Assembly (NCBI RefSeq): GCF_963675165.1
Contig: NC_087391.1
Location: forward strand, 5,674,126 to 5,738,125
Source of the DNA: Halichondria panicea
Taxonomy: Eukaryota > Porifera > Demospongiae > Suberitida > Halichondriidae
Reading direction: 5' to 3'
DNA length: 64,000 bases
The notes under the pieces are model-generated. The model saw nothing but the letters and a program-made list of their open reading frames with translations, made no database searches and was not told the origin of the DNA. Shown here one piece after another: positions 17,201 through 63,792 of the stretch. The translations under genes were made by a program, and so were the position numbers. Each line of letters opens with the position of its first letter. Position 1 is the first letter of the stretch.

Positions 17201-20200
17201 TGATTTTCCGAAAGCTTAGAAAAAGTTCTTTCATGATATGTTTAGCTCAATTTTTTGAAACGGACCTCATTTTGCACTTTTCCCCCACCTATATATAGCC
17301 CACGCTTTTTTGTCAAAAACAGCCTCGAAAATGATCTTTGATTTTAATATGCCATCTGAAAGAGGTCACTTTGAGCTACCAGAAAATGATTTAACAGTTG
17401 AAATTGGACCATCCAAACCCAAATTATGGCAGTCCAAAGATACCACATACAGGCAATCCAATCACAATAATTATTGTAAAACAGAAGTGGTCCCTACCCC
17501 CACTCACCGAATGCATCAGGGCCCCCCTCGATGGTTCCTACCCCCCACTCACCGAATGCATCAGGGCCCCCCTCGGTGGTTCCTACCCCCCACTCACCGA
17601 ATGCATCAGGGCCCCCCTCGGTGGTCCCTACCCCCCACTCACCGAATGCATCAGGGCCCCCCTCGATGGTTCCTACCCCCCACTCACCGAATGCATCAGG
17701 GCCCCCCTCGGTGGTTCCTACCCCCCACTCACCGAATGCATCAGGGCCCCCCTCGGTGGTCCCTACCCCCCACTCACCGAATGCATCAGGGTCCCCCTCG
17801 ATGGTCCCTACCCCCCACTCACCGAATGCATCAGGGCCCCCCTCGATGGTTCCTACCCCCCACTCACCGAATGCATCAGGGCCCCCCTTGGTGGTCCCTA
17901 CCCCCCACTCACCGAATGCATCAGGGCCCCCCTCGATGGTTCCTACCCCCCACTCACCAAATGCATCAGGGCCCCCCTCGGTGGTCCCACTGGAGTACAT
18001 GGTGGCCAGTTTGTCGTCCACCAAGAACCGGAACCATCCATTACTGACTTTGCTCAACTCAATGGCCGTGTACTCATTCCACAGATAGAGACAATCGCGA
18101 GACTTGATCACGAACCACTCCCTCCAGTGGTAGGCCGTGTGAGTGGTGAGATCGGGGGCGTCATCACAGTCCTCTGTAGTGTGAGTAGTGAGGTCGGGGG
18201 CGTCATCACAGTCCACCTGGTCATCTGGCAGGGGAGGGGCACAGAACTGACGTTACATGTACACAAGAATAACTATGTTTATAGTACATACAAGCCTACA
18301 TTGCAGACCATTGCAGTCTCTTTAGACTCGTAGCAAGTGCATAGCAAAATCTGTTTGACTACTTAGTAGTTGGCTTCGTACAAGACTAGAGCACACCCAA
18401 CTTGCCCTTTTTGGTAGATTAGGTTCTGTCTTTATTTTTGTGTAGAAGTAGCCGAAATTATTCAACTACGCTAAATCCTTGGCCCTAATAAGAGTGCAAT
18501 CTTAGGCTAGAATTGAAGTATTATTGTATTAATATCTAACAATCCGTTGCAATCCACTGCATTATACAGTGTGTACCTTCTCTGTCCACACTGCTTCCCT
18601 CCAGGGGGACCACCAAAACCTCACTCTCGTCCTTTACAGCCTTGTTCACCTCTATTTCATTCTTTGCAGCTTCTCCAATATCAATCTCGTTCTTTGCAGC
18701 CTCCCCAATATCAAACTCGCTCTTTACTGCCTCCACTGGGGAGGCGTCAGTGTCATCGTCACTGCTGGCGTCTTTAGCCAGGTGCAGTATCTTGGTGGGT
18801 ATACCAAGTCGTACAAACTGCTCATCAAAAGCTGGCCCACTCTTAGCCAGTAAATCATTCACAATATGCAGAGCTGTCAGTTGAGAGTCTACATCATCTT
18901 CACTGTCTAGTGCTACGGATAACACTTCGCTAATCTGAGCAGGGAACGGTGGTTGGGGGGTGGGGCCTGTTTCCTTGGAGACAGCCTCTACACACAGCTC
19001 ACACAGACACTCGGCACTGATGTAGCGGCACATCTTACGCAACATACGCAAAGCCTCCTTCCTGCAAGTATAGAAAGAGGAGGGGCTAACAATTAACTGT
19101 TGCAATCACTTAAAAAAGAATATAAAAAAATAACTAATCTGAGGGGTGTGGCTAAACTGACCTGAGGGGTGTGGCTGGCTAAACTGACCTGAGGGGTGGG
19201 GCTAGACTAGAGTGGAATAGCTCAGCAAACACTGGTAGGAGTCTCTTGAGGTAGAGGGGGGCCATCTCAGGATCACCCTTATCATCCTCGGCCACCTCAG
19301 ACTCCTCACTCTCAACCTTTACTGCCTCCTTGGTCTCCGTGGAGATGGTACCAGTTGCGGGTGGGGCAATGAGTGAATGCGATTGGTCGCCTGGTTCGAT
19401 GGTGGGCGTTCTAGCGGAGGCTGTAGTGTCTTCTTCATCCCCAGAGAATGAGTCATCAGTGTCTGACACATCACGCAACATGTATTCACCTGGGAGGTGA
19501 TACCGTATAGCGCGAAATTTTCGAGGCACTTATATTTCGTGGATTAGCCTCTAAAAGCTATTTCGTTGCACAATGTTCGCGGAATGACTGCTTACCGGAA
19601 GCCACGCCTTTAAATCTATGCATGCTATAGCAGGTAATTCAATTTTCGTGGACTTAATTTTCGTGTAGGATTCTAACCCACGAAATCCGCGAAAATTAAG
19701 CCCCTCGAAAATTTCGCGCTATACGGTACATGATGATGATTTCTATACAGCAATGGAGACTACGCTACCTACTATTGTCGAGGATATACATGTGATAAAA
19801 ATTAGAAATTGTATTGTAAAATGTCAAGTTACAATAGTTACTAACTACGAGTACATTATAGCAACGCCCACTCATTCAGGTACCCCCCACCCACTCACTT
19901 GGGCTCTCCAGTATCTCGATGACTTGTCTGTGCCACTCATCCTCCCTCTCCTGAGCCTTCTCTAGAGGGGTGTGGCAATCCTCATCTCGGAGGTCAGGAT
20001 CCGCTCCATACTGCAGCAACAGCTTCACAATATTCGGACGTCCAAAGCAAGCAGCGTAATGGAGTGATGATGACTTGAGGCCTCTGTTCACGTCGGCACC
20101 ATGCTCTAACAGATACTCAACCATCTCGTATGTGCCAAACGCAGAGGCCCAGTTTAAAATGGTCTGTCCAACATCGTCGATGAAGTTTACATCAAATCCG

Positions 20201-23181: not shown

Positions 23182-25677
23182 ATGGACACATCTTCAAGTG
23201 TAGCTATGGAGAATGAGGCGCCTCCCGAGCCCAGTACAAGCTCTGATGTGAAGGAGGAGCGAATACTAGCACGTAGGAAGCGAATCCAAGCCAAAATAGA
23301 GGCTGATCGGAGAGCTGCACTGGGAGAAGAGCCTCAAAAAGTAACTATATCTACCATCTTTGATGCATATCCACACAGTCCTGTGCATGTCTAATAACAT
23401 GATCATTGATATTCCTACAGGAGGTGGAGGATGTGGTGGATCCTGAGAGGGAGAGGGTCAGCTCTAAGCAAACACTCATGAGCAATGTACGACTGGAGAA
23501 GCTCTCTACTGATGGCACTCAACTGGTGACTAACATCACAGTGGCCGGGGACTCAAAGGAAGTTAGCCGGAGGATGGAGGAAGATGAAGCTCGGAGGGCT
23601 AGGTAAAGAGATGTGTGGTCTAATAATTAACAAAGTAGCGCAGTGTTCTCCCTGCAATGGTAGACTTTAATGCTCTTATAGTGCTTGAATTAAGCGCATG
23701 TAGTATAATTAGTGCCTAGCTGGTGATTATATCACTTACGTATGTTTGCTATGGCTGCAGGTATGACACGCTGGAAGCAGAGGTGACTGCTGGGGCCGAA
23801 CGATTCGAAGAGATCTCCAAGAAGTGGCTCAAAACGAAAAACATGAAGATACCTCAAGACCTTCAGAGTTTGCTCCAAGCTCAGAAAGCAACTTGCTCTG
23901 CCATGATTGACGAAAAAGATAAACTGATCCAAGAACTGCAACAAGAACTCAAATCAAAGGATGACCAATACGTTAAGCACCTCAAGAAACAAGCTGAAGA
24001 TGTTGACCTCATTATAGAGAGGATGGAAGATCAGGCCAAAACATTGTCAAAGGCTTATCGTAAAGAACTGAATGCCATCGAGGTCTCCTTTGCAACTGAG
24101 CGGCAAAACTTGCTAGACACACACCAAGCCGAGTGGGAGAAAGCAGTCAGTGAGCGTAGTGGCAAGGAAAAAGATTTTCTGGAGGCACGAGAGAAACGAA
24201 TTGAAGAAAATGAGCGGCAGATCCAACACTTGAGAGTACGAAATGCAGAGGAATTTAATCGTGTCAAGATCAAGCTTGAAACTGATATTCAAATCTTACA
24301 GCAACAGATCCAGCAAATGAAAGCAACCTTTCAACTAAACTCTGAGAAACTTGAATACAACTTCCAAGTATTGAAAAAGAGAGATGAGGAAAACTCTATC
24401 ACTATCAGTCAACAGAAGAGGCGGATCACACGCCTGCAAGACACACTCAACAACTTGCGAGGGAAACTAAGCAAACAGGAAAAATCGTGCAAAGTTGAGC
24501 TTCAAGCGCTAATGGAGGAGTACCGTAAGAACACTGAGCAATATCGAGAACTGCAAAAGAAGGTGAAGCATTTCCAGGTGACTGATCGCCGCCAGTTTCG
24601 CGATATCTGGCTCATGAACGAATACAAAGTACAAGGTCTAGCAAAGGAGGTTGAGAATGCAGACAAAATCATCCACGAGCAACAGTTGGGTTTAGACTGG
24701 GAGCCACAGCCGCCAGTCGAGAGCCCCATTCACACACACAGTGTCAAAGCTGACGTACAAATCAGTGGAGCCACTCTCTATGCATCACAGATACTCTCAG
24801 ACACTGAATCATCGGACATTGTGTTACCACCGACTTCTGCTGGGCCGGGAATTGTTTGCCACTCCCCACGAGTTATTAAACTAGTGCTAGAGCTACTCTG
24901 TGCAGAGTCTGGCTTCCTCATTGAGTCAAAACTTACTCGATTGCTAGCCCCACTGGAAAAAGAAGAGCAAATGTTGATGAAACTTGATTCGATTTTTGAT
25001 GCTATCGGTATTGACACAGAAAAAGACATTCATCATCTGGCCAGCTATTTCATTCAAGAGACGGATAATGCAAACCAAGAGGGAGCCCCTTTGTTAATCC
25101 ATCCTAACGAGGTTCCTACTGCCATTCGGACATATGTTGAGCAAAGACAAGGTGCTGACAAAGGGTCCTCTATGCTGAGGTCCAAGGCCTTGATGCTGGG
25201 GCAGACACAGGACCACAGTGAGCTGCTAAATGGAGGGTTCTGGGAGAAGATGACTCAAGTGCTCCCTGAGAGTCATGAGAGGGTCTGGACTGCACTACTG
25301 GAGGTGAGCATATGTAGTGTAATTACTCTACGGTGTACATTGTATTATCACTAGTGTGTTGTTCCTGTGTTTACATTTCAACTTCTCATAATGTGTGTAT
25401 TTTGTACCTATAATACCACTGTAATGTTGTGTAATTATAGACTTTGTATGCAAACCACCCCATAGCCTCTGTACTGCATCAATAAGTGTTACCACCTTCC
25501 CCCCTGTAGGGCCTGGACCGCTACCACAGTGTTCTCCAGGCACGCTCCAGTCTCATAGGAGAGACTGACACTCTGAGACTACAGAATGGAGAGCTGAGGA
25601 TGCTACTCCATCAGTACATGAGTGCTCGCATCAACCAAGAGCTGGAAATACCTCCCACACTAACTATGCCCATGTAG
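23182..25677 (+). CDS. DRC1: DRC1, dynein regulatory complex subunit 1 (nexin link)
   Basis: Four exons, 23182-23340, 23421-23602, 23761-25303 and 25510-25677, give 2052 nt and 683 aa (human about 740). The N-terminal EERILARRKRIQAKIEADRR and the LIIERMEDQAKTLSKAYRKE segment are typical of DRC1/CCDC164. Residues from about 100 to 430 are almost continuous coiled coil. The C-terminal part contains the conserved FWEKMTQVLPESHERVW and the terminal GLDRYHSVLQARSSLI helix. Known role: core scaffold of the nexin-dynein regulatory complex that links outer doublets and controls ciliary beating. In a sponge it would serve flagellated choanocytes and larval or sperm cilia (inference). The start follows an A-rich leader, and the frame is open from there. 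Confidence 0.93.
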
Positions 25678-37271: not shown

Positions 37272-39754
37272 ATGGTGATGATGAAGGAGCTATTGCTACT
37301 AGCTGCTGTACTGTGTGTCTGCCTGCACACCACACGAGCTGGCCCAGCATGCAACAAGTAACCTCTCCACACACACACACACACACACACACTAGCTAGG
37401 ATACTTTAAATTAATAGAGTCAGAGACGATTCTGTTCCAATTTAAAGTAATAATTTATGATGAGTCTGCTTTTCTACAGCCCAGTGTACTGTTATGGAGA
37501 CCTTCTAGATGCGGTTCAAAGGTCGAATATATTCCCTGATTCCAAGACGTTTGTTGATCGTCCTCTCAAAGCCAGTCCGGAGGTCATCCTTTCATCTTTT
37601 ACAGCCTCCCCGCCCACACAGCTGCATCAGTTTGTGCTCAACTGGACACTCGAGAGCAACTCCGACTTGTTGCCATGGGAACCAGACGACTGGACGGAGG
37701 GGTGAGTACATATTGTTTGATATTACATTTTGTATAATTGGATTCTCAGGCCATCTTTTATTGCTGACCTTGCGGATCCTTTGGTACGAGAATGGGCGAA
37801 TGGGCTGAATAAGGAATGGAGGTTGTTGGGTCGCCAGGTATCACCCTCAGTGAGACAACAGCCAGATCAGCACTCTCTCCTACCATTGCCACACCCCTTC
37901 ATAGTACCAGGGGGACGCTTTGGAGAGATCTACTACTGGTAGGCACTTGCTAATAATGTGTGCAGCAGCTGAGATTACGTTGAGTTAGGATTGTGCTTTT
38001 AATACTTCTTGAGAAGAAAAAGTAATGGGCTATTGTAAGAGGATTTTTTAGAAATGGGCCTGTTTTTATTACTTTGAGTGCACGTAACTTGAGTTAGGAT
38101 TGTGCATTTTCACAGTTACAAGATGCATTTTGTAGCCCTTTGAAGTACCTATCTATAGATCCCAACCCCACCCACCCCCTCCCAGGGACACCTACTGGAT
38201 AGTGAAGGGACTGCTACTGTGTGAGATGCAACAGACAGCCCAGAACATGGTGCTCAATCTACTCTCTCTAGTGGACAAGTAAGCCACTGTCCTACAGCTA
38301 ACAGTACACACACAATACTGATATAGATATGGTATGGTCCCTAATGGTGGGCGTGTGTACTACACCCGTCGCAGTCAACCCCCACTCCTCACACAAATGG
38401 TGGACCTAGTGTATGGTGCCACAGAGAACGTGACGTTCCTGACAGAGGCCTTACCACGACTGAGTAAGGAATGGGAGTTCTGGATGAATGAGAGGGTGGT
38501 CTCAGTACAGGGATACAGCCTCAACAGATATGCTGTGGACATTGACAGCCCCAGACCAGAGGCGTACACTGAGGACCTGGCCACTGCAAGCACACTGCCT
38601 CTAGGTGAGTGAGCTATTGTATCAGTCTATGGATTGGTGGTACACCCGCCTTCCAGTTGATCGTCCCTTGCTGTACACCCAGCTGACCTCCGCCGCAGAG
38701 TCTGGGATGGACTTCTCCTCACGCTGGCTACGAGATGGTCATACTCTCTCCACCATACACACACAGAGCATTGTACCAGTCGACCTCAACGCTATATTAT
38801 GCAGCAATGAAGCAACTCTAGCTAGACTGTACACAATCATTGGTGAGTGGGTCATGCTATTATAATAATTATTTTGTCAAAGAATTTTAAGTGCTCTTTC
38901 ATGCGTAGTGTTGTTTGCTGTGCAGGGAACACTTCTGCTGCTGCCATGTTTGAAGCAGCCAAGGCCTCACGTGAGCAATACTTTGATGCCTTGTTCTGGA
39001 ATGAGACTGAGGGGCTGTGGTTGGACTGGAACCGAGACACTGGCAATCACTCCACTGGTTTCTACAGCTCATCACTAGTACCACTGTTATGGGGTTGTTC
39101 TGTCAACACAAGCCAGCACAGACGTGTGCTTACCTCTCTGAGGGAACGAGGACTACTCAACTATCCCGGTGGACTACCAACCTCTCTGTATGAGTCAGGA
39201 CAGCAGTGGGACTACCCTAATGTATGGGCACCTCATCAGTGGTTCCCTGTGGTAGCATGGCAGCAATCACAGGATCAAGAGCTACAAGCTGCTGCTCAGC
39301 ACATGGCAGAGGCGTGGATAGTGTCTACCTATACTGGATGGAAGCAATACAACCGCACCATGTTTGAGAAAGTAAGTCAATTCTCTGTTCACTATTATTT
39401 CACGTTCATTCATGTACACAGTATAACTGCACTGTGTCTGGAGTACCTGGAGGGGGGGGGGAGTATGTCATCCAAGCCGGGTTCGGTTGGACTAACGGAG
39501 TCACTCTACACTTCCTCTCGCTTTTTCCAGCCTCCACTGTGGACCACCCCCCCTCTCTTGGTTGGGTCGCTCCTGTGGTGGTGCTATTGATACTGCTAAT
39601 TGCAGGGACACTCCCCTGTGTGTTGTGGTTGCAATGGATCTATAAGACAGGGGAGAGGAGATACAGGAACAGAGTGCAACAAGGTCCCACCATGGATGAA
39701 GAAACTAAGAGCGATGACACTCTAGACACTAACGAGCATAGAGAACTGTTATGA
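37272..39754 (+). CDS. TREH: Trehalase (GH37), membrane-anchored, 8 exons
   Basis: Exons 37272-37357, 37480-37701, 37750-37938, 38186-38278, 38327-38604, 38657-38842, 38926-39371 and 39422-39754 join in frame (1833 nt, 610 aa). A signal peptide is visible ([20 protein letters not shown]). Both trehalase signatures are present: [15 protein letters not shown] (split over exons 3-4) and [14 protein letters not shown], as well as GGGGEY and GFGWTNGV near the C-terminus. It hydrolyses extracellular alpha,alpha-trehalose to two glucose. The C-terminus carries a clear hydrophobic helix ([17 protein letters not shown]) followed by a charged cytosolic tail of about 45 residues, so this is a type I membrane form rather than the GPI-anchored form of mammals. 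Exon 8 has a run of ten G (39452-39461) in the coding GGGG motif. The first ATG was taken as start; two more in-frame Met codons follow immediately. Confidence 0.94.
37985..38145. mobile_element. Dispersed repeat family 2, copy in trehalase intron 3
   Basis: It contains two GAGTTAGGATTGTGC segments, then TTTTCACAGTTACAAGATGC and TGTAGCCCTTTGAA. A related copy lies at 46660-46925. No coding capacity or clear terminal structure is visible. Confidence 0.5.
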
Positions 39755-48462: not shown

Positions 48463-51400
48463 TTAGAGAGTTGTCAATTGTTCTGAGCGTTTGATAATTC
48501 CTCCGCCCATCAGCTGTTGCTCTGGCGGCCGTCTCTGCTGCTGATCGTACGTAGTCCCCCTAGGCTGATATTGCCCTCCGCGGCCTGAAGGCGTTCGATG
48601 AAACAAGTCAGAACCAGCTTCTCTTGTTCGAGTAGCACCATAGTCGGATGATGACAGCACTTGTACTCGGGGATCTTGGAGGGATCTCCTCCTGCGTTCG
48701 TCGTCTATGAGTCTCTGTCTCTGCAGCTCCCTCTGTTTGCTTAGCTCCCTCCCTTTGGCTTGCTCTCTTGCGTGCTGTCGAATGAACTTATCATCAGAGG
48801 AGGGAGAAACAGAGCCGTGTCTGTCTATCCTCACCGGCATGTCTACGTCCTCATCAATGTCTCTGTTCTGGAACACCAACTCTCTATTTAAGTTATCAAT
48901 GCTTCCATTGAGATGATCTGAACTGCGGCGTACTCCAGACTTCCCTCTTCTGCCTCCCTGACGAGTTAGACTGAGATTATCAGCTGATGGGAAAATGAGA
49001 TTGTCTCTGTCGCTAGCCTCGAATGAATCGCTACTAGTGCTACCAGCGTTGCCGTTAGTGATAATGCCGATATACCTCTCGTTGAAGTTATCCACGTCCA
49101 GTGATCCACTTTGCTCAGGAACAGTTTCCAATGTCATAGCGTATCCTTGAGACAGGGGGTTGATATCCTGTTTCCCTTTCCTGCCCACTCCTAATCGTCT
49201 GGAGGTAACCCCCGCGTCCATGGGGAGGGCGTCAGGCATCACCATTCCCCCTGAGGTGATATTGAATGGGCTGTCGACGGGAATGCCAGAGCTGCTGCCA
49301 TGGCTAGAGTTGAGACTGAACATGGAGGACATGGGTGTCACCGGTGGAGGCATACTAGGGAAGAACCCAATGCCCTCACTGCCATTGCCCAGCATATCGT
49401 TGGACGCTGGGTAGTTGTCAATTTGAGAGAGTGGGGTTAGTCCGAGTGAGAGGTAGGCTTGGGTTGGATCCTCGCTGAACTGTAGGTCAATCAGTTCATC
49501 TTCTTCGTACTCAGCATAGGGACTGGTTCGACTGCTGGCCCCGGTATGGTAGGAGGAGGCAGGCATGTCCGTCCCAGTGGACTCATAGAACGAGTGCTGC
49601 ACAGAGGAGAGAGAGGGGGATAAGGGTATTACATGCTACTGTTAGGTGATTTACAAGAAGCGTACATGATTATTACATGATTATTATTTTACTACATGAT
49701 TATTACAAGTATATGTATGGAAATTGGCCAAATAATAGTAGTTGAACTCACCTTTACAGCTTGCTTTGCCATGTGAGGGGGTGGTCTGCCATACTGTGAG
49801 TGGTCCTTGATGAGTGGTCGTCCTGAGTGCCCACTCATGATACCATCATCTCCAGTGCCAGAGTGATAGATGTGGTGGTTAGGGATGAGGTCTATACTTG
49901 ACTCAATCTGACTATAGTGGTTGGCATGGTGAAGGGGAACAATGTCGATGGGGCTCATCTCCTGTACAGAGGGGAGGAGGGTAATTAAGCTAGGTATACA
50001 ATCAGCCATGCATACACAGGTATAGTAAATACAACCATGCAGTATGCATGCACGGAGGTAGTTGTTGCGAATCTACTAATGACTTACCACATTCTCTTCT
50101 TCACCAAACCAGAAGTCAGAGGCCCTGGACGATGGCCTGTGGCCAGTGTTGGGAGCGTAGCGTCTTTTCTTGTTCCTCTTTAGGACGTACCGAATGACGA
50201 ATACAAGGACTACTGCTAGGAGTAAGAGGATGACAACACCCATGCCACCACCAATAGCGGCAACAGGCACAGGCACATCAGCACTTGGGGTATCTTCTAC
50301 ATCTGAGGGCGTTGTTGTGTCTTGAGTGGTTGGCGGTGTTGTGTCTTGAGTGGTTGGCGGTGTTGTGCCTTGAGTGGGCGATGGTGTTGTGCCTTGAGTG
50401 GGCGATGGTGTTGTGTCTTGAGTGGTTGGCGGTGTTGTGTCTTGCGTGGGCGATGGTGTTGTGTCTTGCGTGGGCGATGGTGTTGTGTCTTGCGTGGGCG
50501 ATGGTGTTGTGTCTTGCGTGGGCGATGGTGTTGTGCCTTGCGTGGGCGGTTGTATTGTGCCTTGAGTAGTCCCAGTGGGTGTCTCCGTGTGTGAGACTAT
50601 CGGGGTTTCAGTAAGTCCAGGAGTAGTTGTCTGTATTACTGCTTGTGTCGAGCTGCTGGTTGCAGAAGATGTCTCAACTGCAGTAGAGATGACACTGGTT
50701 GTTGAAGATTCTGTGGTGGGAGTTGGTACAATATTACTGGTAGTAGTCGCTATTATAACCGTGTCTGTTGAGGTTACTTGTAGCATTTGTGTAGCAGCAG
50801 ATTCACTTGAAATCATCGTTGAGATTGGGTTAACACTCATCGTAGATGTTGTGCCTGGGTCTGAGATTGTGGAAACAATTGACGACAGAGTTGCACTAGT
50901 GGATTGTACACTGGAGGATGATGACATGCTAGACAATATAGTTGTACTTGGGGATGGAGTTACGCTTGAGGATGGAGCTGCGCTTGAGGATGGAGCTGCG
51001 CTTGAGGGTGGAGCTGCGCTTGAGGATGGAGCTGCGCTTGAGGATGGAGCTGCGCTTGAGGATGGAGCTGCGCTTGAGGATGGAGCTGCGCTTGAGGGTG
51101 GAGCTGCGATTGAGGATGGCGACATGCTTGATGATACAGTTGCACTGGTCAATGCTGGCACACTAAGGGATGGCGACATGCTTGACGAAACAGTTGCACT
51201 GGTCAATGCTGGCACACTAGGAGATGGCGACATGCTTGAAGATACTGTTACACTGGTCGATGCTGGCACACTAGGAGATGGCGACATGCTTGACGATACA
51301 GTTGCACTGGTCGATGCTGGCACACTAAGGGATGGCGACATGCTTGACGATACAGTTGCACTGGTCGATGCTGGTACACTAGGAGATGGCGACATGCTTG

Positions 51401-54400
51401 AAGATACAGTTGCACTGGTCGATGCTGGCACACTAAGGGATGGCGACATGCTTGACGATACAGTTGCACTGGTCGATGCTGGTACACTAGGAGATGGCGA
51501 CATGCTTGAAGATACAGTTGCACTGGTCGATGCTGGCACACTAAGGGATGGCGACATGCTTGAAGATACAGTTGCACTGGTCGATGCTGGCACACTAAGG
51601 GATGGCGACATGCTTGAAGATACAGTTGCACTGGTCGATGCTGGCACACTAAGGGATGGCGACATGCTTGAAGATACAGTTGCACTGGTCGATGCTGGCA
51701 CACTAAGGGATGGCGACATGCTTGAAGATACAGTTGCACTGGTCGATGCTGGTACACTAGGAGATGGCGACATGCTTGAAGATACAGCTGCACTGGTCGA
51801 TGCTGGTACACTAGGAGATGGCGACATGCTTGAAGATACTGTTGCACTGGTCGATGCTGGTACACTAGGAGATGGCGACATGCTTGAAGATACAGTTGCA
51901 CTGGTCGATGCTGGTACACTAGGAGATGGCGACATGCTTGACGATACAGTTGCACTGGTCGATGCTGGCACGCTAAGGGATGGCAACATGCTTGAAGATA
52001 CAGTTGCACTGGTCGATGCTGGTACACTAGGAGATGGCGACATGCTTGACGATACAGTTGCACTGGTCGATGCTGGCACACTAAGGGATGGCGACATGCT
52101 TGACGATATTGTTGCACTTGGTGATGGAGTTACGCTTGGTGATGGAGTCACGCTTGGGGATGGAGTCACGCTTGGGGATGGAGTTATGCTTGGTGATGGA
52201 GTCACGCTTGGTGATGGTGTAGTCATTGGAGCAGAACAAGACTCATTGACATCAGTGAATGGTATTGTAACAACCACCTCAGCATTAATGCTAGCAACAG
52301 TTGACAGTGTGAAGCTACCAATCTCTACCCCGATCTCCACCACCAAAATGAGGGACAAGTTGAAGCTTGTGGTGAAATTCCCTGGAATATATTTGCTGAA
52401 TGCAGCAGTACCGCTCTCACCACTTGGTTCCAGAACATCAATCACCTCTAATCCACCGTAGTCCTCAGTCTCAGAACTTCCAATGAAGTCATCAAACTCA
52501 GACTGGAATCTGCTGTCAGTTGACTTGAACACGAGAGCCAGTCTCACTGTACCATCCAGCGGCACCTCTCCACTTCCCACACGAGTCACACTACCCTCAA
52601 TCACAAGCTCACACAGATGACTCGTATTCACTGAAGGTGGACGAAAGAAGGGTATGATTGTTAAGTTTGCATTGAAGCTGAAGTCCAGAGCTGTTTTCTC
52701 GATAGTATTGAAATCTGAAACATCAACATCTCCCAAGTCCCCAGTGGTGTTCCTGATCATTTGTCCAAGTGGCGTTGAGAATTTGTACACTTCTGCAGCG
52801 AGGTACTCGAGCAGCAAGTACTGATCCCTCAGGTCAACACATCCATCGTCGTTTAGATCAAACTTTGAACCTGCTCCGACTGATCGTCTATCTCTTGTAG
52901 ATAGGGCGGAGCTGACCTTTGCACTACGTCTACGTCTGTTCCCACCTCCTGTTATCCTGAACTGCACTTGACTGGCTGCAAACGATTGGCTGAGTGAAAT
53001 ATCCGTCAGGGACACATTTGCCTCAGACAAGTAGGAGACGTTCACAGACAGATTAACCATTCCTGGCACATCCATCACCTCAAATGTTAGTACTGCTAGC
53101 TCTGTTAGACCTTGGGCTCCACTGTTCAGCACTCCTCCAAACTGCACCGTCTTATCGCCCTGGGGCACAAATGACAAGGAACCATTTCGCCAGTTGCTTC
53201 CTTGTTCACCACCCATCAATTTCAGAGGGGAGTTGTTAGAAGTAGTACACTCATAATGCAGCTCAAGTCCGTACACCCCCAATCGATTATTAGGAGCATT
53301 GAATCGCAGTGGTAGTTTAAGTATAACCCCAGGTTCTAGTGTTGGTATGGGGGGTCCAGTAGTGCTGCCCACATCAAAGCCATTCACCTCTGGCTTCAGA
53401 TTACTAGCGAATGTTGTGGAATTGCTTACAGTTCCAGCATTTGCAGTCACAGTGAAGTAGGAGTTTCTTAACAGTCTAATGGTTCCCGGGCGTGTTAGCT
53501 CAACCGTAGAGTCATCATCAATGGAGAATTGGATAAGATTGTCATAGAGAGGCCTACCATTCTCGAAGGTGTGTGGTAGCAGCGTGCCGTCATCAAGCAC
53601 AACAGAGCAGTCGAGATAATAGTCATTGTCTTGCAGTCCAGCTGACATGAATATATCATCAATTTCTTGCACCTCGAGAGGCATTGAACCAATTTGCAGT
53701 GTTAAATTGTCAGATATAATTGAATCGTTAATAGCATAGCCGTTCAAGCTCACAGCTGAGACCTCATTGGTCAAATTACTCAGAACATTATCCACCAGTT
53801 GACCAGCTGTTGCTGTGACTCGTACATGGTCAGTGATCACATGATCAGTGTTGTTATTAAGAAAGCGAAGATATGCACGCACTATCACACTCTGATATAC
53901 ATCACTGTCTCCTATACTGCGAATCTCCGTTACGCTTATGTCGGATGGACCGTATCTCGGATAGGCCCTCAGGAAAAAGTTTGTAGACACAATTTTGATA
54001 ATCAACGTTTTATTCAGCACTTCACTACCAAGGGTATAGTATACAATTACAGCTGCTGTATCACCAAAGCCACTGCCGTTCACCAGTATTATGTTGTTAT
54101 CCTGCTTCATCAGCTGTGGCCCTACAGATGTGGTAGCCTCACTAGTGACATCAACACTGACATTATCAGCGTAGATCAGACGGGCTGTAATAGTAGCGGA
54201 CGTGGGCACACCGAGGACAATAGAGATATCGTCCAATGAGGTTAAAGATGATGAGGAGATAGTGACAACCAGAGAAGGCATTTCGCTGAACGGGGAGAAC
54301 GTTTTGTTATCATTGAGTGTCAGACTATAACTAGTACAGTTGGTTCCTCCACTAGCCCACACTGAGAGTATATCAAAGCTGTCAACTGGTTGTGGGAATG

Positions 54401-57400
54401 TATAATTACTAGCGCTGACATTTTCTTGCGGGAGCATGATCCACCAATCAACACCGTCCTCTTCAGTGAGCAGGAGGGTGTGGTTATCACTGAACTGTAC
54501 CACAGCAGAGAGATACAGTCTCGAGTTCACATACTGGAAATTTTGCTCTAATATCACGGACAATTCATCGTTGGTTCTTGTAACTGCTATACCACTAAAG
54601 GCGAACACGTCCAGAAAGGTTGGTACAACCGAAACATTGGACACAAAGATAGTAACAGATCCTGACAATGATGGAACAGAGATGTTGGCATTACCCGGTT
54701 GTAATCCTTGCACTAAACCAGTAGTTGAGATAGTAGCTATTACCGTGTCTTCTGGATCTACTTCAAGCCGGGAGGCCAATAAAGACGTTACGCTGATGGA
54801 GGTAGTCTCAACAACCCCTGCACTAATGTTTGTCCTTATTGCCAGCTGTGTCCGTTGGTAACTGGTTCCACTGCACACTGAACAAGTTTCTATTACATTC
54901 AGCACCTCATCTTGAGCGGTGATAGTGATCTCACGAGACGCTTGCCATACTTTGAGTGGCAGACTCACATTTGCATTGTCAGCATTCAGGATGATGTCTG
55001 TCTGTGGAGCACCCCCTGTCTCAGAGCCATTAAAGAAAAAGTGCGAACAATTTGTCACATGAACAATTTCCGAGTTGCTTGAACAGCTATCAATTGAGAT
55101 GCTATTAAATTCACCGTTTTCAGTGAATTTCAGCATTGTTATTGGGAAGTAGTGAGTGTCTGAAGTGAGGGTGGCAATATTGACTACCTCATTCTCGGTG
55201 GTGTATGCAAACAGCTGCATCATTGCAGGTCTTGTACGCAGAGTCAGCTGTCCAACCTTATCGACAATATTGCTTCCATTGACGGCATTAATGAATCGGA
55301 ACTGTGGAGCAAGGTCCGTTTGATTGGTTAGTTCCAACCGTAGTACCTCACAGCTGACTTGTACATCACTAGTAGGATTCATTATCCTGAGAGAGAACAA
55401 CTCTTCCTGTGCAAAGTTTGTTGAGCTAGCATTCCCATTGTCGTAGATTCTTAAGCCGGTAATGGACAGTCTTGTTTGGTTGTTCTCATCAAAGAAACTG
55501 GCCACCCTACTCCAAATGAATGGTGAGATAGTATCTTTAAACAGAGCACCTTTAACAGTGCAGTCCACGCTGAAGGTTAAGACTCGAGTGTTGAATGTAG
55601 CGTAGACTGGAATACTGACTTGTTCCACTGTTCTGATTGGTCGCTGAGGGAGTACCATAAACACATTACTAGTCAACACTTGCTCCAGCCAAGGCATTAG
55701 CTGTAAAGTGACAGAACAGCTAGGTACACTCTGTCCACTAACATATACATTAAGAGTGGCTGTTTGCATCTCTTCTGTAAATATGCTGTATAAATCAATC
55801 CTAGTCTTGCAGACACCAGATTCATCAGACGAGGAACAGCTGTAGTTAGAATCAGCTGATTCCACACTAAACAGTATCTCCACACCAGTGAAGGTATTGA
55901 ACACGGAGTCCCTAGCTTGAGCAGCAACCTGTATAACAGGTTCATCAGGCCAAATCAAGTTATTGCTGACGGCACAATCACTGACGGTCATGGGTAGTAT
56001 TGGTTGCCTCTCACTGAGACTAGCCACACCCACCACACCCCCTAACGAGGCTCTCACTTCCCTCACACCCTCCAGCGAGGACACTAGATTATTGTACGAT
56101 ACAGAATAATTGAGTCCATCCTTGCTCTCAGGTTGTAGGGGATCAACAATAAATCCCGCCACTCCCACGTCCACAGTGATGGGGGCAACTGGGTCCAGTC
56201 TCGAGTAGTTCATAGGAGGATAGGGACAGGGGGAGGGGCTTGGAGTGGGTGTTGCAACGACACTGGTGGATGGTTGGATGGTTGAAGTTGGAATTATATT
56301 GCTCGTCACATTCATTTGAATGGAGGTTGCATTGCCTGTCAAAGAAGGTGTCATGGAGATGATTACTGATGATGCATTGAGTTGTGTGGAGGTCAGTAAC
56401 ATAGTGGTATTGATAAGTGTAATGCTCCTCACTACTGTTGCATTGGGTGTGGGCGTGGGCGTGGGTGTCAGAGCAGTAGTATTAGTGGCTGCTGCTGTTG
56501 AACTGGCGAAAGCAGAGGGGGACGGAGTCACTGATAAGGAAACAGAGCTAGCGACTGAACTTATGACTGGAGTCTCACTGAGGACAGGACTCATCCCAGA
56601 ACCAGAACCAAACATATCATCTGGCGTAGGGGTTGGAGTTGCCGATAAAATGGTTGAAGTTAAACTTGTAGCAGAGGGGGTGATTATACTCTCAATAGAT
56701 GATGTCAATAGCATTGTGGATGATGTATTTCCAGCGACCATTGTCCCTGAGATAGCAACTTGTGTTGAGGATACATTTTCTAGCAGTACAGAGCTAGTAG
56801 CAGTTGGAGTTGCCGATAAAATTGCAGAAGTTAAACTTGTAGCAGAGGGGGTGATTAGTATACTCTCAATAGATGACGTCAACAGCATTGTGGATGATGT
56901 ATTTCCAGCTACCACTGTCCTTGAGATAGCAGCTTGTGTTGAGGATACATTTACTAGCAGTACAGAGCTAGTAGCAATTGGAGTTGCCGATAAAATTGCA
57001 GAAGTTAAACTTGTAGCAGAGGGGGTGATTAGTATACTCTCAGTAGATGACGTCAACAGCATTGTGGATGATGTATTTCCAGCAACCATTGTCGTTGAGA
57101 TAGCAGCTTGTGTTGAGGATACATTTTCTAGCAGTACAGAGCTAGTAGCAGTTGGAGTGATCCGTACGGTGGAAGTTGAAACTGATGGTGTAATAATCAA
57201 GCTTTCAATGGAGGATGTTGCAACTGGAGTCTCGCTGAAGATAGGACTAATTCCAGAACCAGAACCTTCATCTGGCGTAGGGGTTGGAGTTGCCGATAAA
57301 AATGTTGCAGTTAAACTTGTAGCAGAGGGAGTGATTAATATATTCTCAATAGATGACGTCAACAGCATTGTGGATGATGTATTTCCAGCGACCATTGTCC

Positions 57401-60400
57401 TTGAGATAGCAGCTTGTGTTGAGGATACATTTTCTAGCAGTACAGAGCTAGTAGCAATTGGAGTTGCCGATAAAATTGCAGAAGTTAAACTTGTAGCAGA
57501 GGGGGTGATTAATATACTCTCAATAGATGACGTCAACAGCATTGTGGATGATGTATTTCCAGCTACCACTGTCCTTGAGATAGCAGCTTGTGTTGAGGAT
57601 ACATTTACTAGCAGTACAGAGCTAGTAGCAATTGGAGTTGCCGATAAAATTGCAGAAGTTAAACTTGTAGCAGAGGGGGTGATTAATATACTCTCAATAG
57701 ATGACGTCAACAGCATTGTGGATGATGTATTTCCAGCTACCACTGTCCTTGAGATAGCAGCTTGTGTTGAGGATACATTTACTAGCAGTACAGAGCTAGT
57801 AGCAATTGGAGTTGCCGATAAAATTGCAGAAGTTAAACTTGTAGCAGAGGGGGTGATTAATATACTCTCAATAGATGACGTCAACAGCATTGTGGATGAT
57901 GTATTTCCAGCTACCACTGTCCTTGAGATAGCATCTTGTGTTGAGGATACATTTACTATCAGTACAGAGCTAGTAGCAATTGGAGTGATCCGTACGGTGG
58001 AAGTTGAAACCATTGATGGTGTGATAATCAAGCTTTCAATGGAAGATGTTGCAACGGGAGTCTCACTAAAAATAGGACTAATCTCAAAACCAGAACCTTC
58101 ATCTGGCGTAGGGGTTGGAGTTGCCGATAAAAATGTAGAAGTTAAACTTGTAGCAGAGGGGGTGATTAATATACTCTCAATAGATGACGTCAACAGCATT
58201 GTGGATGAATTTCCAGCGACCATTGTCCTTGAGATAGCTGCTTGTGTTGAGGATACATTTTTTAGCAGTACAGAGCTAGTAGCAATTGGAGTTGCCGATA
58301 AAAATGTGGAAGTTAAACTTGTAGCAGAGGGGGTGATTAAAATACTCTCAATAGATGACGTCAACAGCATTGTGGATGAATTTCCAGCGACCATTGTCCT
58401 TGAAATAGCTGCTTGTGTTGAGGATACATTTTCTAGCAGTACAGAGCTAGTAGCAATTGGAGTTGCCGATAAAAATGTGGAAGTTAAACTTGTAGCAGAG
58501 GGGATGATTAAAATACTCTCAATAGATGACGTCAACAGCATTGTGGATGAATTTCCAGCGACCATTGTCCTTGAGATAGCTGCTTGTGTTGAGGATACAT
58601 TTTCTAGCAGTACAGAGCTAGTAGCAATTGGAGTTGCCGATAAAAATGTGGAAGTTAAACTTGTAGCAGAGGGGATGATTAAAATACTCTCAATAGATGA
58701 CGTCAACAGCATTGTGGATGAATTTCCAGCGACCATTGTCCTTGAGATAGCTGCTTGTGTTGAGGATACATTTTCTAGCAGTACAGAGCTAGTAGCAATT
58801 GGAGTTACCGATAAAAATGTGGAAGTTAAACTTGTAGCAGAGGGGGTGATTAAAATACTCTCAATAGATGACGTCAACAGCATTGTGGATGAATTTCCAG
58901 CTACCATTGTCGTTGAGATAGCAGCTTGTGTTGAGGATACATTTACTATCAGTACAGAGCTAGTAGCAATTGGAGTTGCCGATAAAAATGTGGAAGTTAA
59001 ACTTGTAGCAGAGGGGGTGATTAAAATACTCTCAGTAGATGATGTCAACAGCATTGTGGATGATGTATTTCCAGCTACCATTGTCCTTGAAATAGCTGCT
59101 TGTGTTGAGGATAAATTTTCTAGCAGTACAGAGCTAGTAGCAATTGGAGTTGCCGATAAAAATGTGGAAGTTAAACTTATAGCAGAGGGGGTGATTAATA
59201 TACTCTCAATAGATGACGTCAACAGCATTGTGGATGAATTTCCAGCGACCATTGTCCTTGAGATAGCAGCTTGTGTTGAGGATACATTTTCTAGCAGTAC
59301 AGAGCTAGTAGCAGTTGGAGTTACTGATAAAATGTTAGAAGTTAAACTTGTAGCAGAGGGAGTGATTAATATACTCTCAATAGATGACGTCAACAGCATT
59401 GTGGATGAATTTTCAGCGACCATTGTCCTTGAGATGGCTGCTTGAGTTGAGGATACATTTTCTAGCAGTACAGAGCTAGTAGCAGTTGGAGTTGCCAATA
59501 ATAATGTAGAAGTTAAACTTGTAGCAGAGGGAGTGATTAATATACTCTCAATAGATGACGTCAACAGCATTGTGGATGAATTTCCAGCTACCATTGTCGT
59601 TGAGATAGCAGCTTGTGTTGAGGATACATTTTCTAGTAGTACAGAGCTAGTAGCAATTGGAGTTACCGATAAAATGTTAGAAGTTAAACTTGTAGCAGAG
59701 GGGGTGATTAAAATACTCTCAATAGATGACGTCAACAGCATTGTTGATGATGTATTTCCAGCGACCATTGTCCTTGAGATAGCAGCTTGTGTTGAGGATA
59801 CATTTTCCAGCAGTACAGAGCTAGTAGCAATTGGAGTTGGCGATAAAATGTTAGAAGTTAAACTTGTAGCAGAGGGGGTGATTAATATACTCTCAATAGA
59901 TGACGTCAACAGCATTGTGGATGATGTATTTCCAGCTACCATTGTCGTTGAGATAGCAGCTTGTGTTGAGGATACATTTTCTAGCAGTACAGAGCTAGTA
60001 GCAGTTGGAGTTGCCGATAAAATGTTAGAAGTTAAACTTGTAGCAGAGGGGGTGATTAAAATACTCTCAATAGATGACGTCAACAGCATTGTGGATGATG
60101 TATTTCCAGCTACCATTGTCGTTGAGATAGCAGCTTGTGTTGAGGATACATTTTCTAGCAGTACAGAGCTAGTAGCAGTTGGAGTTGCCGATAAAATGTT
60201 AGAAGTTAAACTTGTAGCAGAGGAGGTGATTAAAATACTCTCAATAGATGACGTCAACAGCATTGTGGATGATGTATTTCCAGCTACCATTGTCGTTGAG
60301 ATAGCTGCTTGTGTTGAGGATACATTTTCTAGCAGTACAGAGCTAGTACCAGTTGGAGTTGCCAATAAAATGCTAGAAGTTAAACTTGTAGCGGAGGGGG

Positions 60401-63400
60401 TGATTAAAATACTCTCAATAGATGACGTCAACAGCATTGTGGATGATGTATTTCCAGCTACCATTGTCGTTGAGATAGCAGCTTGTGTTGAGGATACATT
60501 TTCTAGCAGTACAGAGCTAGTACCAGTTGGAGTTGCCGATAAAAATGTAGAAGTTAAACTTGTAGCAGAGGGGGTGATTAGTATACTCTCAATAGATGAC
60601 GTCAACAGCATTGTGGATGATGTATTTCCAGCTACCATTGTCGTTGAGATAGCTGCTTGTGTTGAGGATACATTTTCTAGTAGTACAGAGCTAGTAGCAA
60701 TTGGAGTTACCGATAAAAATGTAGAAGTTAAACTTGTAGCAGAGGGGGTGATTAAAATACTCTCAATAGATGACGTCAACAGCATTGTTGATGATATATT
60801 TCCAGTGACCATTGTCCTTGAGATAGCTGCTTGTGTTGAGGATACATTTTCTAGCAGTACAGAGCTAGTAGCAATTGGAGTTGCCGCTAAAAATGTAGAA
60901 GTTAAACTTGTAGCAGAGGAGGTGATTAAAATACTCTCAGTAGATGACGTCAACAGCATTGTGGATGAATTTCCAGCGACCATTGTCCTTGAGATGGCTG
61001 CTTGTGTTGAGGATACATTTTCTAGCAGTACAGAGCTAGTAGCAGTTGGAGTTGCCAATAAAAATGTAGAAGTTAAACTTGTAGCAGAGGGGGTGATTAA
61101 AATACTCTCAATAGATGACGTCAACAGCATTGTGGATGATGTATTTCCAGCTACCATTGTCGTTGAGATAGCAGCTTGTGTTGAGGATACATTTTCTAGC
61201 AGTACAGAGCTAGTAGCAGTTGGAGTTGCCGATAAAATGTTAGAAGTTAAACTTGTAGCAGAGGGGGTGATTAAAATACTCTCAATAGATGACGTCAACA
61301 GCATTGTGGATGATGTATTTCCAGCTACCATTGTCGTTGAGATAGCAGCTTGTGTTGAGGATACATTTTCTAGCAGTACAGAGCTAGTACCAGTTGGAGT
61401 TGCCGATAAAAATGTAGAAGTTAAACTTGTAGCAGAGGGGGTGATTAAAATACTCTCAGTAGATGATGTCAACAGCATTGTGGATGATGTATTTCCAGCT
61501 ACCATTGTCGTTGAGATAGCAGCTTGTGTTGAGGATACATTTTCTAGCAGTACGGAGCTAGTAGCAGTAGGAGTGATCCGTACGGTGGAAGTTGAAACTG
61601 ATGATGTAATAATCAAGCTTTCAATGGAGGACGTTGCAACTTGAATCTCACTGAAGAGGGGAGTAATCCCAAAACCAGAACCATCATCTGGCGTATGTCT
61701 TGCCGACCGGGCTGTGGTTATTGGCTCAGTACAAGGTTCATCACAGTCAGCTCTTAAGTCAAGACAAAACTGTTCACACACTCGAAAATCTTGGATACTA
61801 AACATAATAGCTCTCTCTTGGAAATCGGTCATTGTCAGTCGTACTTGACTTGCACGATAGTATGTCTCTAAGGGAATATCGGAATCACCCGGTAGAGGCC
61901 GAGAATTGTCATCAGTGCCAGTAAGCTGTGCATGGGATAATAGAGTAATCAAAATAACAACTAATGGTATCTACTGCAATAATAATTATGGAAAATACAC
62001 ACTTACATAGAACTCCAGTTGCTGTGCCCCTGGGCTGTACTGTAAGCAGGTGATGTCATAAGGTGTTGAGAGTCTGGGGGAGAAAGGAAACAATGTCATC
62101 ATGTGATTATCTCGAGGTGAAATTTGATGCTATACACAGTGCGAACATTTCTAGCATGCCTATATAGGCACTAGGGAATATCCAGCTGTATTATTGACAG
62201 TGTAATGCACAGTATCAGTTTGGCCTTTGATAATTAGGAGAATCACAAAACAGATGTGTGCTGGCTACGGACGAGTGCATTAGTCCACTTACGGTTGATT
62301 GGGTGATATCCCAAAGGCACTCGAGCAGTTGAGAGCAAAGTGCTGCAATGATATCCACGCATTACTGCTAGTCTGAAAGAACTCCAGTGTGGCACGAGTG
62401 GGGAGTTCTGAGGTGAAGGAAATGAACATTTTGGAGAGGGGGGTGGGGTTGGTAAAACCAAGTGTTGTCATGACAGGGGTAGCTCCCGGGTCGGACGACC
62501 AAATTGTATCATCGGAATCGTCAGCCAGGAAATCCGACACTGCAGCTGAGAGTTGGAACCTGTGTGCATGCATGGCCATGGGAATTAAACGATAAATGTT
62601 TTCCAGGTGTGATATTCATGGTCTATCGTCACAGATAATTGGGCAGCAAATATGTATGTAGCCACTGCAACATTCCTTGCAACACACACTTTAGTACTAT
62701 GTGGTCAAATACACCAGACCTTGAACTAATGAGCCGTAAAGGGTTGAACACAAATACTTGTACATATATGTAGTTTTCCGTTGGTGTGGTAATAACATTG
62801 AGGTATCGACCAACCAGCTAGTACATTCATGACTATACAGCAGGCACCACGGTTATGGTGCCAATGACTCGTGAATAAACTTATATGTACATTAAATAAG
62901 GCTTGATATGAACAACACCTAATAGTCCATGAACCTGATATTGCCACTAGAAGCATCTCATGCACTAGGTCGATCAGCTGAAGTGCCTAACATCTTAATT
63001 AAGCTGCTCATTTATTGAATGCAATAGACACAGCAACTGAACACTGTATAAGGCTACCCTACACGAGTGTGTGACTTCCCTCTCCCACTATTATTGTAAT
63101 TTGATCACTAATTATTTACACAAGGATGTGTATTAAATTAATCACCTGTCAATTGTGTCAGTTGTGTTAGTCTCGTTTACACAAGTGTCCATCAATGAGA
63201 TCTCTGAGCCAGAGGGGCAAAGGCATTGCGGTAAAAATGGTTCATCTCTTGGTACAATGATTTGGTCTCCATCCATGGCCAGTGGCGGAGTATATATACG
63301 GAAATCTTGAATCAAACCAGTGAAGTTGTTTCCAACTGTAACAGAGTCCACAGACGTGCTGCTCGGGAAACCAACAGAGGTTAGTATAGTTGCTTCAGTG

Positions 63401-63792
63401 TCTATATGAACTGTAGCATTGGTAGCTGGCTTGAATGTGATGTGAACGGCCTTCCACACATCACTTGATTCTCCATTCATCAAAACTATCATACCATTGA
63501 AAAGTAGATCCCCACTGTTATCATAGCCAAGGATAATTGAGCTTTCTCCAAGTACAACTTCAAACAACGTCCTATAGAGCAATTATTAATCAAATTTCAC
63601 TGTGTATATATACAACCATGCATGCACTTACCCTGATTGGGACAATTCTTTATAGAACAGAGTTATAGTGTAGCCGTCACCGAGCTCTTGGGATGAGGGG
63701 TAAGAATCACTGGGGACGGAGTAGCTCTGACCACGGAATGAGATGGAGGGAGTTTCTCTGTTGGGGTGAGATTCACTGGAAAACATTAGCAT
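48463..63792 (-). CDS. Giant membrane protein: usherin-like N-terminus, mucin repeats, TMEM132-like ectodomain (5' partial)
   Basis: Exons 63792-63632, 63571-63146, 62559-62293, 62073-62007, 61925-50088 (11,838 nt, no intron), 49961-49752 and 49596-48463 join in frame: about 4700 codons in the window. No signal peptide exon was found, so the 5' end probably lies beyond 64000. Order: LamG-like domain (ends GLIQDFRIYTPPL); Cys-rich link PQCLCPSGS; laminin-N-like domain as in usherin (SNAWISLQHFALNCSSAFG, DITCLQYSPG); Ser/Thr repeats (residues about 386-2211); TMEM132-like region (about 2214-3149; HVTNCSHFFFNGSETGG, VSLPLKVWQASREITI, STTGLVQGLQPGNANISV); cohesin-like (about 3150-3288); dockerin-like (about 3320-3400; DLNDDGCVDLRD); second stalk; one TM helix (IGGGMGVVILLLLAVVLVFV, near 4195); basic stop-transfer KRNKKRR; tail of about 480 residues. 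Likely a long adhesion receptor; function unknown. Confidence 0.85.
50088..50275 (-). other. Transmembrane helix and juxtamembrane segment of the giant protein
   Basis: The 3' end of the giant exon encodes a single hydrophobic helix of about 25 residues followed by RYVLKRNKKRRYAPNTG. This marks the switch from ectodomain to cytosol and sets a type I topology. Confidence 0.9.
50320..50560 (-). repeat. Short Thr/Pro repeat array next to the membrane
   Basis: About ten copies of a 24-bp unit encode QDTTPSPT or QGTTPSPT variants. It is the membrane-proximal part of the mucin-like stalk and is probably O-glycosylated. Confidence 0.9.
50955..51117 (-). repeat. 18-bp Ala/Pro/Ser repeat array
   Basis: About nine copies of an 18-bp unit encode SAAPSS, almost identical at the DNA level. 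Confidence 0.9.
51118..52110 (-). repeat. 54-bp repeat array encoding an 18-residue Ser/Thr stalk unit
   Basis: Roughly 18 tandem copies of a 54-bp unit encode SVPASTSATVSSSMSPSP with small changes (SP/SL alternation, Ala to Leu or Val). High identity between copies implies recent expansion or homogenisation. Both complementary frames are also open, which creates long shadow ORFs on the plus strand. Confidence 0.92.
52650..52890 (-). other. Dockerin-like module of the giant protein
   Basis: Residues about 3320-3400 contain KFDLNDDGCVDLRDQYLLLE, a good calcium-loop-plus-helix (DxNxDGxVxxxD), and a second degenerate loop GDLGDVDVSDFNTIE about 40 residues later. Two F-hand-like repeats at this spacing are the dockerin pattern. 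It follows directly after a cohesin-like beta domain. Confidence 0.65.
52985..56205 (-). other. TMEM132-like ectodomain plus cohesin-like domain
   Basis: From RLDPVAPITVDVG onward the sequence follows the TMEM132 order: a Cys-containing beta domain (VLTFSVDCTVKGALF), then HVTNCSHFFFNGSETGG, VSLPLKVWQASREIT, SYQRTQLAIRT and Ig-like (BIG2) repeats with TTGLVQGLQPGNANIS and LYLSAVVQFSDNHTLLL. At 53395-52985, PGVILKLPLRFNAPNNRLG to VLTFEVMDVPGMVNLSV looks like an additional cohesin-type jelly roll. There are many N-x-S/T sites. Motif order rather than a search supports the call. Confidence 0.7.
56600..61650 (-). repeat. 27-copy 171/174-bp repeat encoding 57-58-residue Ser/Thr units
   Basis: Each unit reads like SSVLLENVSSTQAAIS-TT-MVAGNTSSTMLLTSSIESIL-ITPSATSLTSTFLSATPTAT. 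I counted 27 units by the SSTQ motif. Units come in a 58-residue (NTSSTM) and a 57-residue (NSSTM) form, arranged in blocks. A linker with PDEGSG..SPIFSETPVATS recurs at the start, after units 20 and 24, and in changed form at the end, giving a higher-order structure. Each unit has several N-x-S/T sequons and many potential O-glycosylation sites. Confidence 0.93.

Follow-up and report, generated by a model that had tools for sequence, protein, structure and literature searches.

A predicted cadherin-less relative of the lefftyrins in the sponge Halichondria panicea, with a conserved furin-type motif between cohesin and dockerin domains

Lefftyrins are cadherins of choanoflagellates and sponges. 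In lefftyrins, coherins, and hedglings, five TMEM132 domains follow one another in order, and the usual TMEM132 architecture includes a cohesin (PMC6030884, the portion consulted). The same portion of that source reports that lefftyrins predate animals and that vertebrate proteins show no detectable dockerin, and it leaves open the partner of the animal cohesin. The present study concerns a gene on the minus strand of a 64,000-nucleotide stretch of the H. panicea genome (assembly GCF_963675165.1, contig NC_087391.1, positions 5,674,126 to 5,738,125; hereafter the window), whose predicted product joins a laminin-N front to a TMEM132-type module and mucin-like arrays. Judged by sequence comparison, this window gene is a cadherin-less relative of a lefftyrin-like giant encoded in the same genome, the two sharing front and module in that order. 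Cutting of the window protein is predicted at the linker between the cohesin and dockerin domains of its module.

Like lefftyrins, the window protein has a laminin-N front followed by TMEM132-type sequence, and its cohesin–furin-type linker–dockerin end is also found in the lefftyrin-like gene. However, lefftyrins have cadherin repeats, whereas the window protein has none (Pfam at E up to 1 in exons 1–6; none in exons 7–8). Laminin EGF domains and a cytoplasmic tyrosine phosphatase, which we take to be lefftyrin features and which are present in the lefftyrin-like gene, were not found in the window protein by Pfam scans; and where the lefftyrin-like gene has three modules, the window protein has one, plus mucin-like arrays. 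With the TMEM132 family it shares the conserved region, cohesin, BIG/Ig domain, and single membrane helix (architecture as given in the consulted portion of PMC6030884), but it adds the laminin-N front, the mucin-like arrays, a second cohesin, and a dockerin, and a pattern scan of its tail found neither WIRS nor RVxF motifs. Coherins similarly combine TMEM132 domains with cohesin and dockerin, although the coherin-like gene of this genome contains cadherins, and none of its three linkers holds a furin-type site. Usherin, expressed by choanocytes of the sponge Ephydatia according to the part of PMC4942974 that was consulted, has the same LamG-like, C-x-CP, and laminin-N order (the LamG-like domain of the window protein scoring under the cut-off), but its laminin EGF, FN3, and C-terminal LamG repeats were not found in the window protein by Pfam scan. 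What is unusual about the predicted window protein is that it is without cadherins, laminin EGF, and phosphatase and has mucin-like arrays in their place.

A lefftyrin-like front and module in a single cadherin-less gene

The window gene model, read from the DNA through splice sites, phases, and domain scans, has eight exons encoding 4,783 residues, with canonical GT-AG sites at seven of seven introns and phases that agree. The interval 48463–63792 covers exons 2–8; exon 1 lies past the end of the window and, read from the genome (window-equivalent 64491–64243), supplies the start codon, a signal-like hydrophobic segment, and a Cys-rich start. Exon 6 is a single open frame of 11.8 kb (a stop-to-stop reading gives 3,964 residues at 61970–50079) that runs from the end of laminin-N through the array, module, and stalk to the membrane helix. 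Because one exon carries all of these, the join between them is not an artefact of the gene model; alignment of the front to the lefftyrin-like relative also crosses the exon 3/4/5/6 joins. The claim of the original prediction that this is one continuous gene is borne out by the splice structure and the unbroken exon 6, and its list and order of modules hold as well: LamG-like, C-x-CP, laminin-N, a 27-unit array, TMEM132, cohesin, dockerin, a stalk, one helix, and a long tail. This tail comprises 478 residues; its last part, encoded by exon 8, gave no match to any Pfam family, even at E values as high as 1.

The lefftyrin-like gene lies on a different contig (G000:C16:480001-510000, L024–L026) and is described here from scanned exons and frames. 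Its N-terminal side consists of a signal-like start, a LamG-like domain (E 0.008, under the cut-off), a CRCP linker, a laminin-N domain, and four laminin EGF stretches. The laminin-N domain scored E 2.7e-20 in the genome search and 5e-22 when scanned alone, and went unlisted when scanned together with the EGF repeats. These are followed by a 6,027-residue frame that reads as cadherins, a frame of 6,172 residues in which three TMEM132 domains are accompanied by further cadherins, and a tyrosine phosphatase (1.2e-32). Each of the three cohesin–dockerin modules has a furin-type site in its linker, and there is a weak dockerin match (0.028). This make-up of laminin-N, EGF, cadherins, TMEM132, and phosphatase is presumably that of a lefftyrin. 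When the genome was searched for the fourth TMEM132 domain, at least seven matches were obtained at E up to 1, at least six of them above the cut-off. They fall in the window gene, in the lefftyrin-like gene (three), and in a further gene (two) that shares a contig with the lefftyrin-like one. This third gene is coherin-like, with 32 cadherin stretches in three scanned pieces, two TMEM132 domains, a cohesin (6.6e-6), and a dockerin (2.6e-5). A corresponding search for laminin-N gave six matches, five above the cut-off, the two best on contig C10.

The original prediction read the front as an usherin-like N terminus, fused to a TMEM132-like ectodomain in a combination with no known precedent. 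The laminin-N and TMEM132 matches themselves stand, both above the Pfam cut-offs. The combination, however, is not new, since lefftyrins, coherins, and hedglings have been published as carrying TMEM132 domains (PMC6030884, the portion consulted). Nor does the fusion account fit this genome, because front and module occur in the same order in one lefftyrin-like cadherin gene. In a two-sequence comparison, the window front matches the lefftyrin-like front with a blastp E of 3e-13 (aa 251–445; by tblastn against the regions retrieved, E 1.9e-10), versus 1e-4 for the usherin front of the same genome, which is shorter and was pieced together by eye. When the fronts are cut at the same conserved point, so that lengths are equal, the window front still matches lefftyrin-like better than usherin (2.9e-9 versus 1.2e-4, blastp).

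Two observations suit a fusion, specific to one lineage, in which a TMEM132 receptor gained its front from usherin: usherin has the LamG-like, C-x-CP, and laminin-N order too, and the lefftyrin-like and usherin fronts, with 39% identity over 144 residues, are more alike than either is to the window front. The latter comparison also marks the shared front as old and the window copy as a diverged one. Set against the match of front and module to one gene, the closer match of the window front to lefftyrin-like, and the occurrence in a second source of a protein related in module, stalk, and helix, such a fusion appears highly improbable. Usherin itself is present in this genome, approximately 0.7 Mb away on the contig of the window (L030, L031; G000:C15:5006001-5026000), and its scanned exons show laminin-N (1.3e-7), seven laminin EGF stretches (4.3e-64), FN3 (7.2e-25), and laminin G (2.8e-27). 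A homology search with the window front gave nothing at E 1e-3 among 3,295 candidates.

The module provides the second line of kinship. Against the lefftyrin-like gene, the window module gave a tblastn E of 2e-46 over 1,274 columns, with two more modules at 9e-35 and 4e-30; against the coherin-like gene, the values were 4e-18, 3e-13, and 0.001. Two public proteins are also related. P0001 (5,805 residues) consists of cadherins and three modules, and P0002 (1,958 residues), from a second source, is 42% identical over 99% of the window module and continues beyond it with a Ser/Thr stalk, a membrane helix, and the juxtamembrane motif seen in the window protein. The idea of a lineage-specific receptor is therefore not supported for the C-terminal part, which has this relative elsewhere. 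In the module tree, the window module groups with P0002 (100/100), and LEF1, LEF2, and LEF3 of the lefftyrin-like gene group with P0001a, P0001b, and P0001c, respectively, each at 100/100; the order of these pairs is not fixed (four of eight inner branches starred), and the coherin-like rows form long branches. Because the tree pairs the window module with P0002 and the lefftyrin-like modules with their P0001 counterparts, the window gene has the look of a long-separated sister gene to lefftyrin and not of a recent offshoot of one of its modules. The window gene shows that front and module can also be found without cadherins, on a mucin-like rod.

Within the module, a single BIG domain is above the Pfam cut-off and a second is below it (Big_2, E 2.8e-4, and Ig_TMEM132_5th, E 0.017, both under their cut-offs), and the first cohesin was placed by comparing its profile with that of the second (match at probability 94.6, E 6.9e-8, 104 columns). 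Four other segments gave no profile match to the first cohesin, which by itself gave one weak, unrelated match among solved structures, and the profile of the whole module matched no TMEM132 structure. An AlphaFold model of 1,093 module residues had a mean predicted local distance difference test score (pLDDT) of 38 and was not used.

Cohesin, dockerin, and the linker between them

Every module of lefftyrin type that was examined ends in cohesin, a basic linker, and dockerin. The cohesin- and dockerin-like modules of the original prediction were recovered by Foldseek and by profile search, respectively. The best Foldseek match of the second cohesin is 2xdh, an archaeal noncellulosomal cohesin (E 1.4e-7), and 34 of the 50 matches listed are cohesins. 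A dockerin profile built from five sequences matched the solved dockerins 9gvb_B (E 2.6e-4) and 4dh2_B (E 3.5e-4), with solved cohesins reaching only 0.26–0.27. Over the five members of the profile, Pfam names Dockerin_1 in four (best 0.003) and Cohesin in three (best 7.8e-5); genome-wide, it gives three cohesin matches and one dockerin match, none in the window gene. Scans of genome contigs and viral contigs with the cohesin–dockerin stretch found no relative.

The linker, 29–42 residues long in all eight modules of lefftyrin type (one each in the window protein and P0002, three in the lefftyrin-like gene, three in P0001), carries at least one R-x-[K/R]-R motif in eight of eight. In the corresponding ectodomains (window aa 1–4275, P0002 aa 1–1890 of 1,958, the 6,172-residue frame, and P0001), all 12 occurrences of this motif fall in the linkers, which account for 272 of 18,142 residues, or 1.5% of the length. 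The naive chance of such placement is approximately 1e-22, a figure that, the modules being related, expresses strong conservation and not a probability. Shuffled versions of P0001, the 6,172-residue frame, and window aa 2290–4275 are expected to hold 0.05–0.25 sites per sequence. As controls, the motif does not occur in the 6,027-residue cadherin frame of the lefftyrin-like gene or in the 7,948-residue coherin-like frame with its three dockerin loops. The window protein has one further occurrence, at the cytoplasmic residue aa 4707. In the AlphaFold model the linker is of low confidence, as an exposed loop would be, as is the dockerin. The genome contains at least 20 matches to the proprotein-convertase P domain.

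The basic linker could instead be a flexible, exposed loop that is not cut, with cohesin and dockerin serving as an internal fold or binding a neighbour; the protein would then be an adhesion receptor of the TMEM132/lefftyrin kind that stays in one piece. The coherin-like gene, which has cohesin and dockerin without sites, fits such an arrangement. An uncut receptor does not explain, however, why the full R-x-[K/R]-R motif is kept in all eight lefftyrin-type modules when the linker otherwise varies, and we regard it as improbable.

A proposed cut-and-clasped receptor

Collectively, these comparisons suggest a model, in which we place moderate confidence, of a single-pass surface protein with a lefftyrin-like front, a lefftyrin-like module, and mucin arrays, subject to a furin-type cut between cohesin and dockerin, its halves likely remaining clasped. 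A proprotein convertase would cut the chain at the linker in the secretory pathway, after cohesin and dockerin had docked in cis, and the docked pair would then join the two halves in a calcium-dependent manner. The laminin-N head, the array, and the TMEM132 domains would make up the outer part, and the second stalk, helix, and tail the inner part. The head may bind matrix or a neighbouring cell, and the long glycosylated array would keep it far from the membrane. Pulling or loss of calcium would free the outer part, while stalk, membrane helix, and tail would stay. In the lefftyrin-like gene, the same scheme would give four pieces joined by three clasps. The clasp, its dependence on calcium, and the ligand of the head are what we infer, and the conserved protease motif would give the cohesin–dockerin pair a concrete job, that of a breakable clasp in a cut receptor. 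Notch is a cut receptor with noncovalently joined halves, to which the proposed mechanism would be analogous. Dystroglycan, which consists of two noncovalently joined parts (PMC4582122, the portion consulted), can likewise be compared with the proposed halves by analogy, but the clasp would differ from both in being a cohesin–dockerin pair, a module of bacterial type. No protease site between cohesin and dockerin was found in the literature surveyed, which was covered by title and start of abstract and lay mostly outside subscription journals.

Several observations weigh against this model. Pfam scans of the window protein list no cohesin and no dockerin, and AlphaFold leaves the dockerin unresolved (mean pLDDT 50 over the cohesin–dockerin stretch, with 10-residue blocks of the cohesin at 56–88 over its first 130 residues), so that the clasp is not readable from the model. 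The eight modules share kinship, hence their 12 sites are not independent, and the coherin-like gene, despite having cohesin and dockerin, has a furin-type site in none of its three module-like stretches, the third of which is a weak match; thus clasp and cut are separable. Only two outside relatives, P0001 and P0002, were found among public proteins, and the window module is not nested in any single lefftyrin-like module, so that a loss of cadherins is not shown. Finally, by a pattern test on loops taken from the module alignment, calcium loop 2 of the dockerin is lost in both the window protein and P0002 (two of two) and kept in six of six modules of the lefftyrin-like gene and P0001. Because of this loss, the clasp may be weak or gone in the window gene.

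This loss bears on a further possibility, that the furin-type cut frees the outer part for good. Once shed, this mucin-like part would serve as a ligand or as a component of the matrix, and the dockerin left behind would meet other cohesins in trans. Such release would agree with linker sites conserved in eight of eight modules, with a clasp weakened in the window protein and P0002, and with a mucin-like array that suits a released gel former. Shedding would not, however, require cohesin and dockerin, which are both kept in all eight modules, 29–42 residues apart, and a cut in module 1 of the lefftyrin-like gene without a clasp would free everything before it. Overall we consider release unlikely, but not equally so for both genes: the clasp is likelier in the lefftyrin-like gene, and for the window gene loss of the outer part competes with it seriously. 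If the clasped model is extended, lefftyrin-type proteins and their mucin-bearing cousin could form a new class of cut-and-clasped receptors. In each TMEM132 module a proprotein convertase would cut between cohesin and dockerin, and this bacterial-type pair, folded in cis and shut by calcium, would be a joint that bears force and can break, lying at the root of animal cell adhesion; we advance this extension tentatively and with less than even confidence.

Mucin-like arrays and other features of the window

In the Ser/Thr array, 27 unit starts were counted; of the 26 spacings between them, 24 are 57–58 residues long and the remaining two 102. Over aa 470–2289 the composition is 43% Ser plus Thr with no Cys, and there are 60 N-glycosylation sequons. 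Among 16 units of 58 residues, the other units having been dropped, the ratio of nonsynonymous to synonymous differences (pN/pS) is 0.71, a value compatible with coding but not proof of it. Open frames of 1,041 and 703 residues also run antisense to the array (window 56320–59445 and 59533–61644, plus strand); these are likely by-products of stop-free repeats. The coordinates of the window gene are collected in Table 1.

Table 1. Features of the window gene (window positions, with strand and basis of assignment)
Feature	Position	Strand	Basis
Exon 2	63632..63792	-	GT-AG, phases agree
LamG-like domain, exons 2–3	63280..63681	-	Laminin_G_3 E 0.0095, under curated cut-off
Exon 3: end of LamG-like domain and C-x-CP linker	63146..63571	-	Splice model; linker aligned to lefftyrin-like CRCP linker
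Exons 4, 5	62559-62293, 62073-62007	-	Splice model; carry laminin-N with start of exon 6
Laminin-N domain, exons 4–6	61761..62546	-	Laminin_N E 8.6e-8, above curated cut-off; aligned to lefftyrin-like gene
Exon 6, open frame of 3,946 residues	50088..61925	-	Open-frame reading and splice model
Mucin-like, Ser/Thr-rich array of 27 units with a 174-bp (58-aa) period	56632..61574	-	Tandem Repeats Finder (TRF) and count of unit starts
TMEM132-type conserved region before first cohesin	55680..56183	-	Placed by order only; alignment with 10 other modules
First cohesin-like domain (TMEM132 position)	55320..55667	-	Profile match to second cohesin
TMEM132 Ig/BIG domain	54942..55208	-	PF16070 (Ig_TMEM132_4th) E 4.2e-10, above cut-off; genome search
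Second cohesin domain	52944..53402	-	AlphaFold and Foldseek
Linker with two furin-type sites (52926-52937, 52884-52895)	52860..52943	-	Motif scan, alignment
Dockerin-like domain; calcium loop 1 (52824-52859) intact, loop 2 degenerate	52680..52859	-	Alignment, profile
Conserved domain 3′ of dockerin, no fold assigned	52236..52679	-	Aligned in 5 sequences
Second mucin-like stalk, 18-bp and 54-bp repeats, 34% Ser, 17% Thr	50265..52235	-	TRF and composition
Membrane helix	50181..50264	-	Read from sequence
Juxtamembrane motif (RY-PN ... SRASDFW), common to P0002	50109..50162	-	By eye
Exon 7, cytoplasmic tail	49752..49961	-	Splice model
Exon 8, cytoplasmic tail, C-terminal end TTL (PDZ-ligand-like, by eye)	48463..49596	-	Splice model

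Elsewhere in the window, a 543-residue frame on the plus strand (23723–25354) carries an NYD-SP28 sperm-tail domain (E 2.7e-23), and a Trehalase match lies on the same strand at 38847–39590 (E 2.5e-32). On the minus strand, positions 7092–7883 encode a partial HECT ubiquitin-ligase domain (E 5.5e-6). A 45-bp tandem repeat at 17487–17985, with 11 copies at 95% match, is open in several frames.

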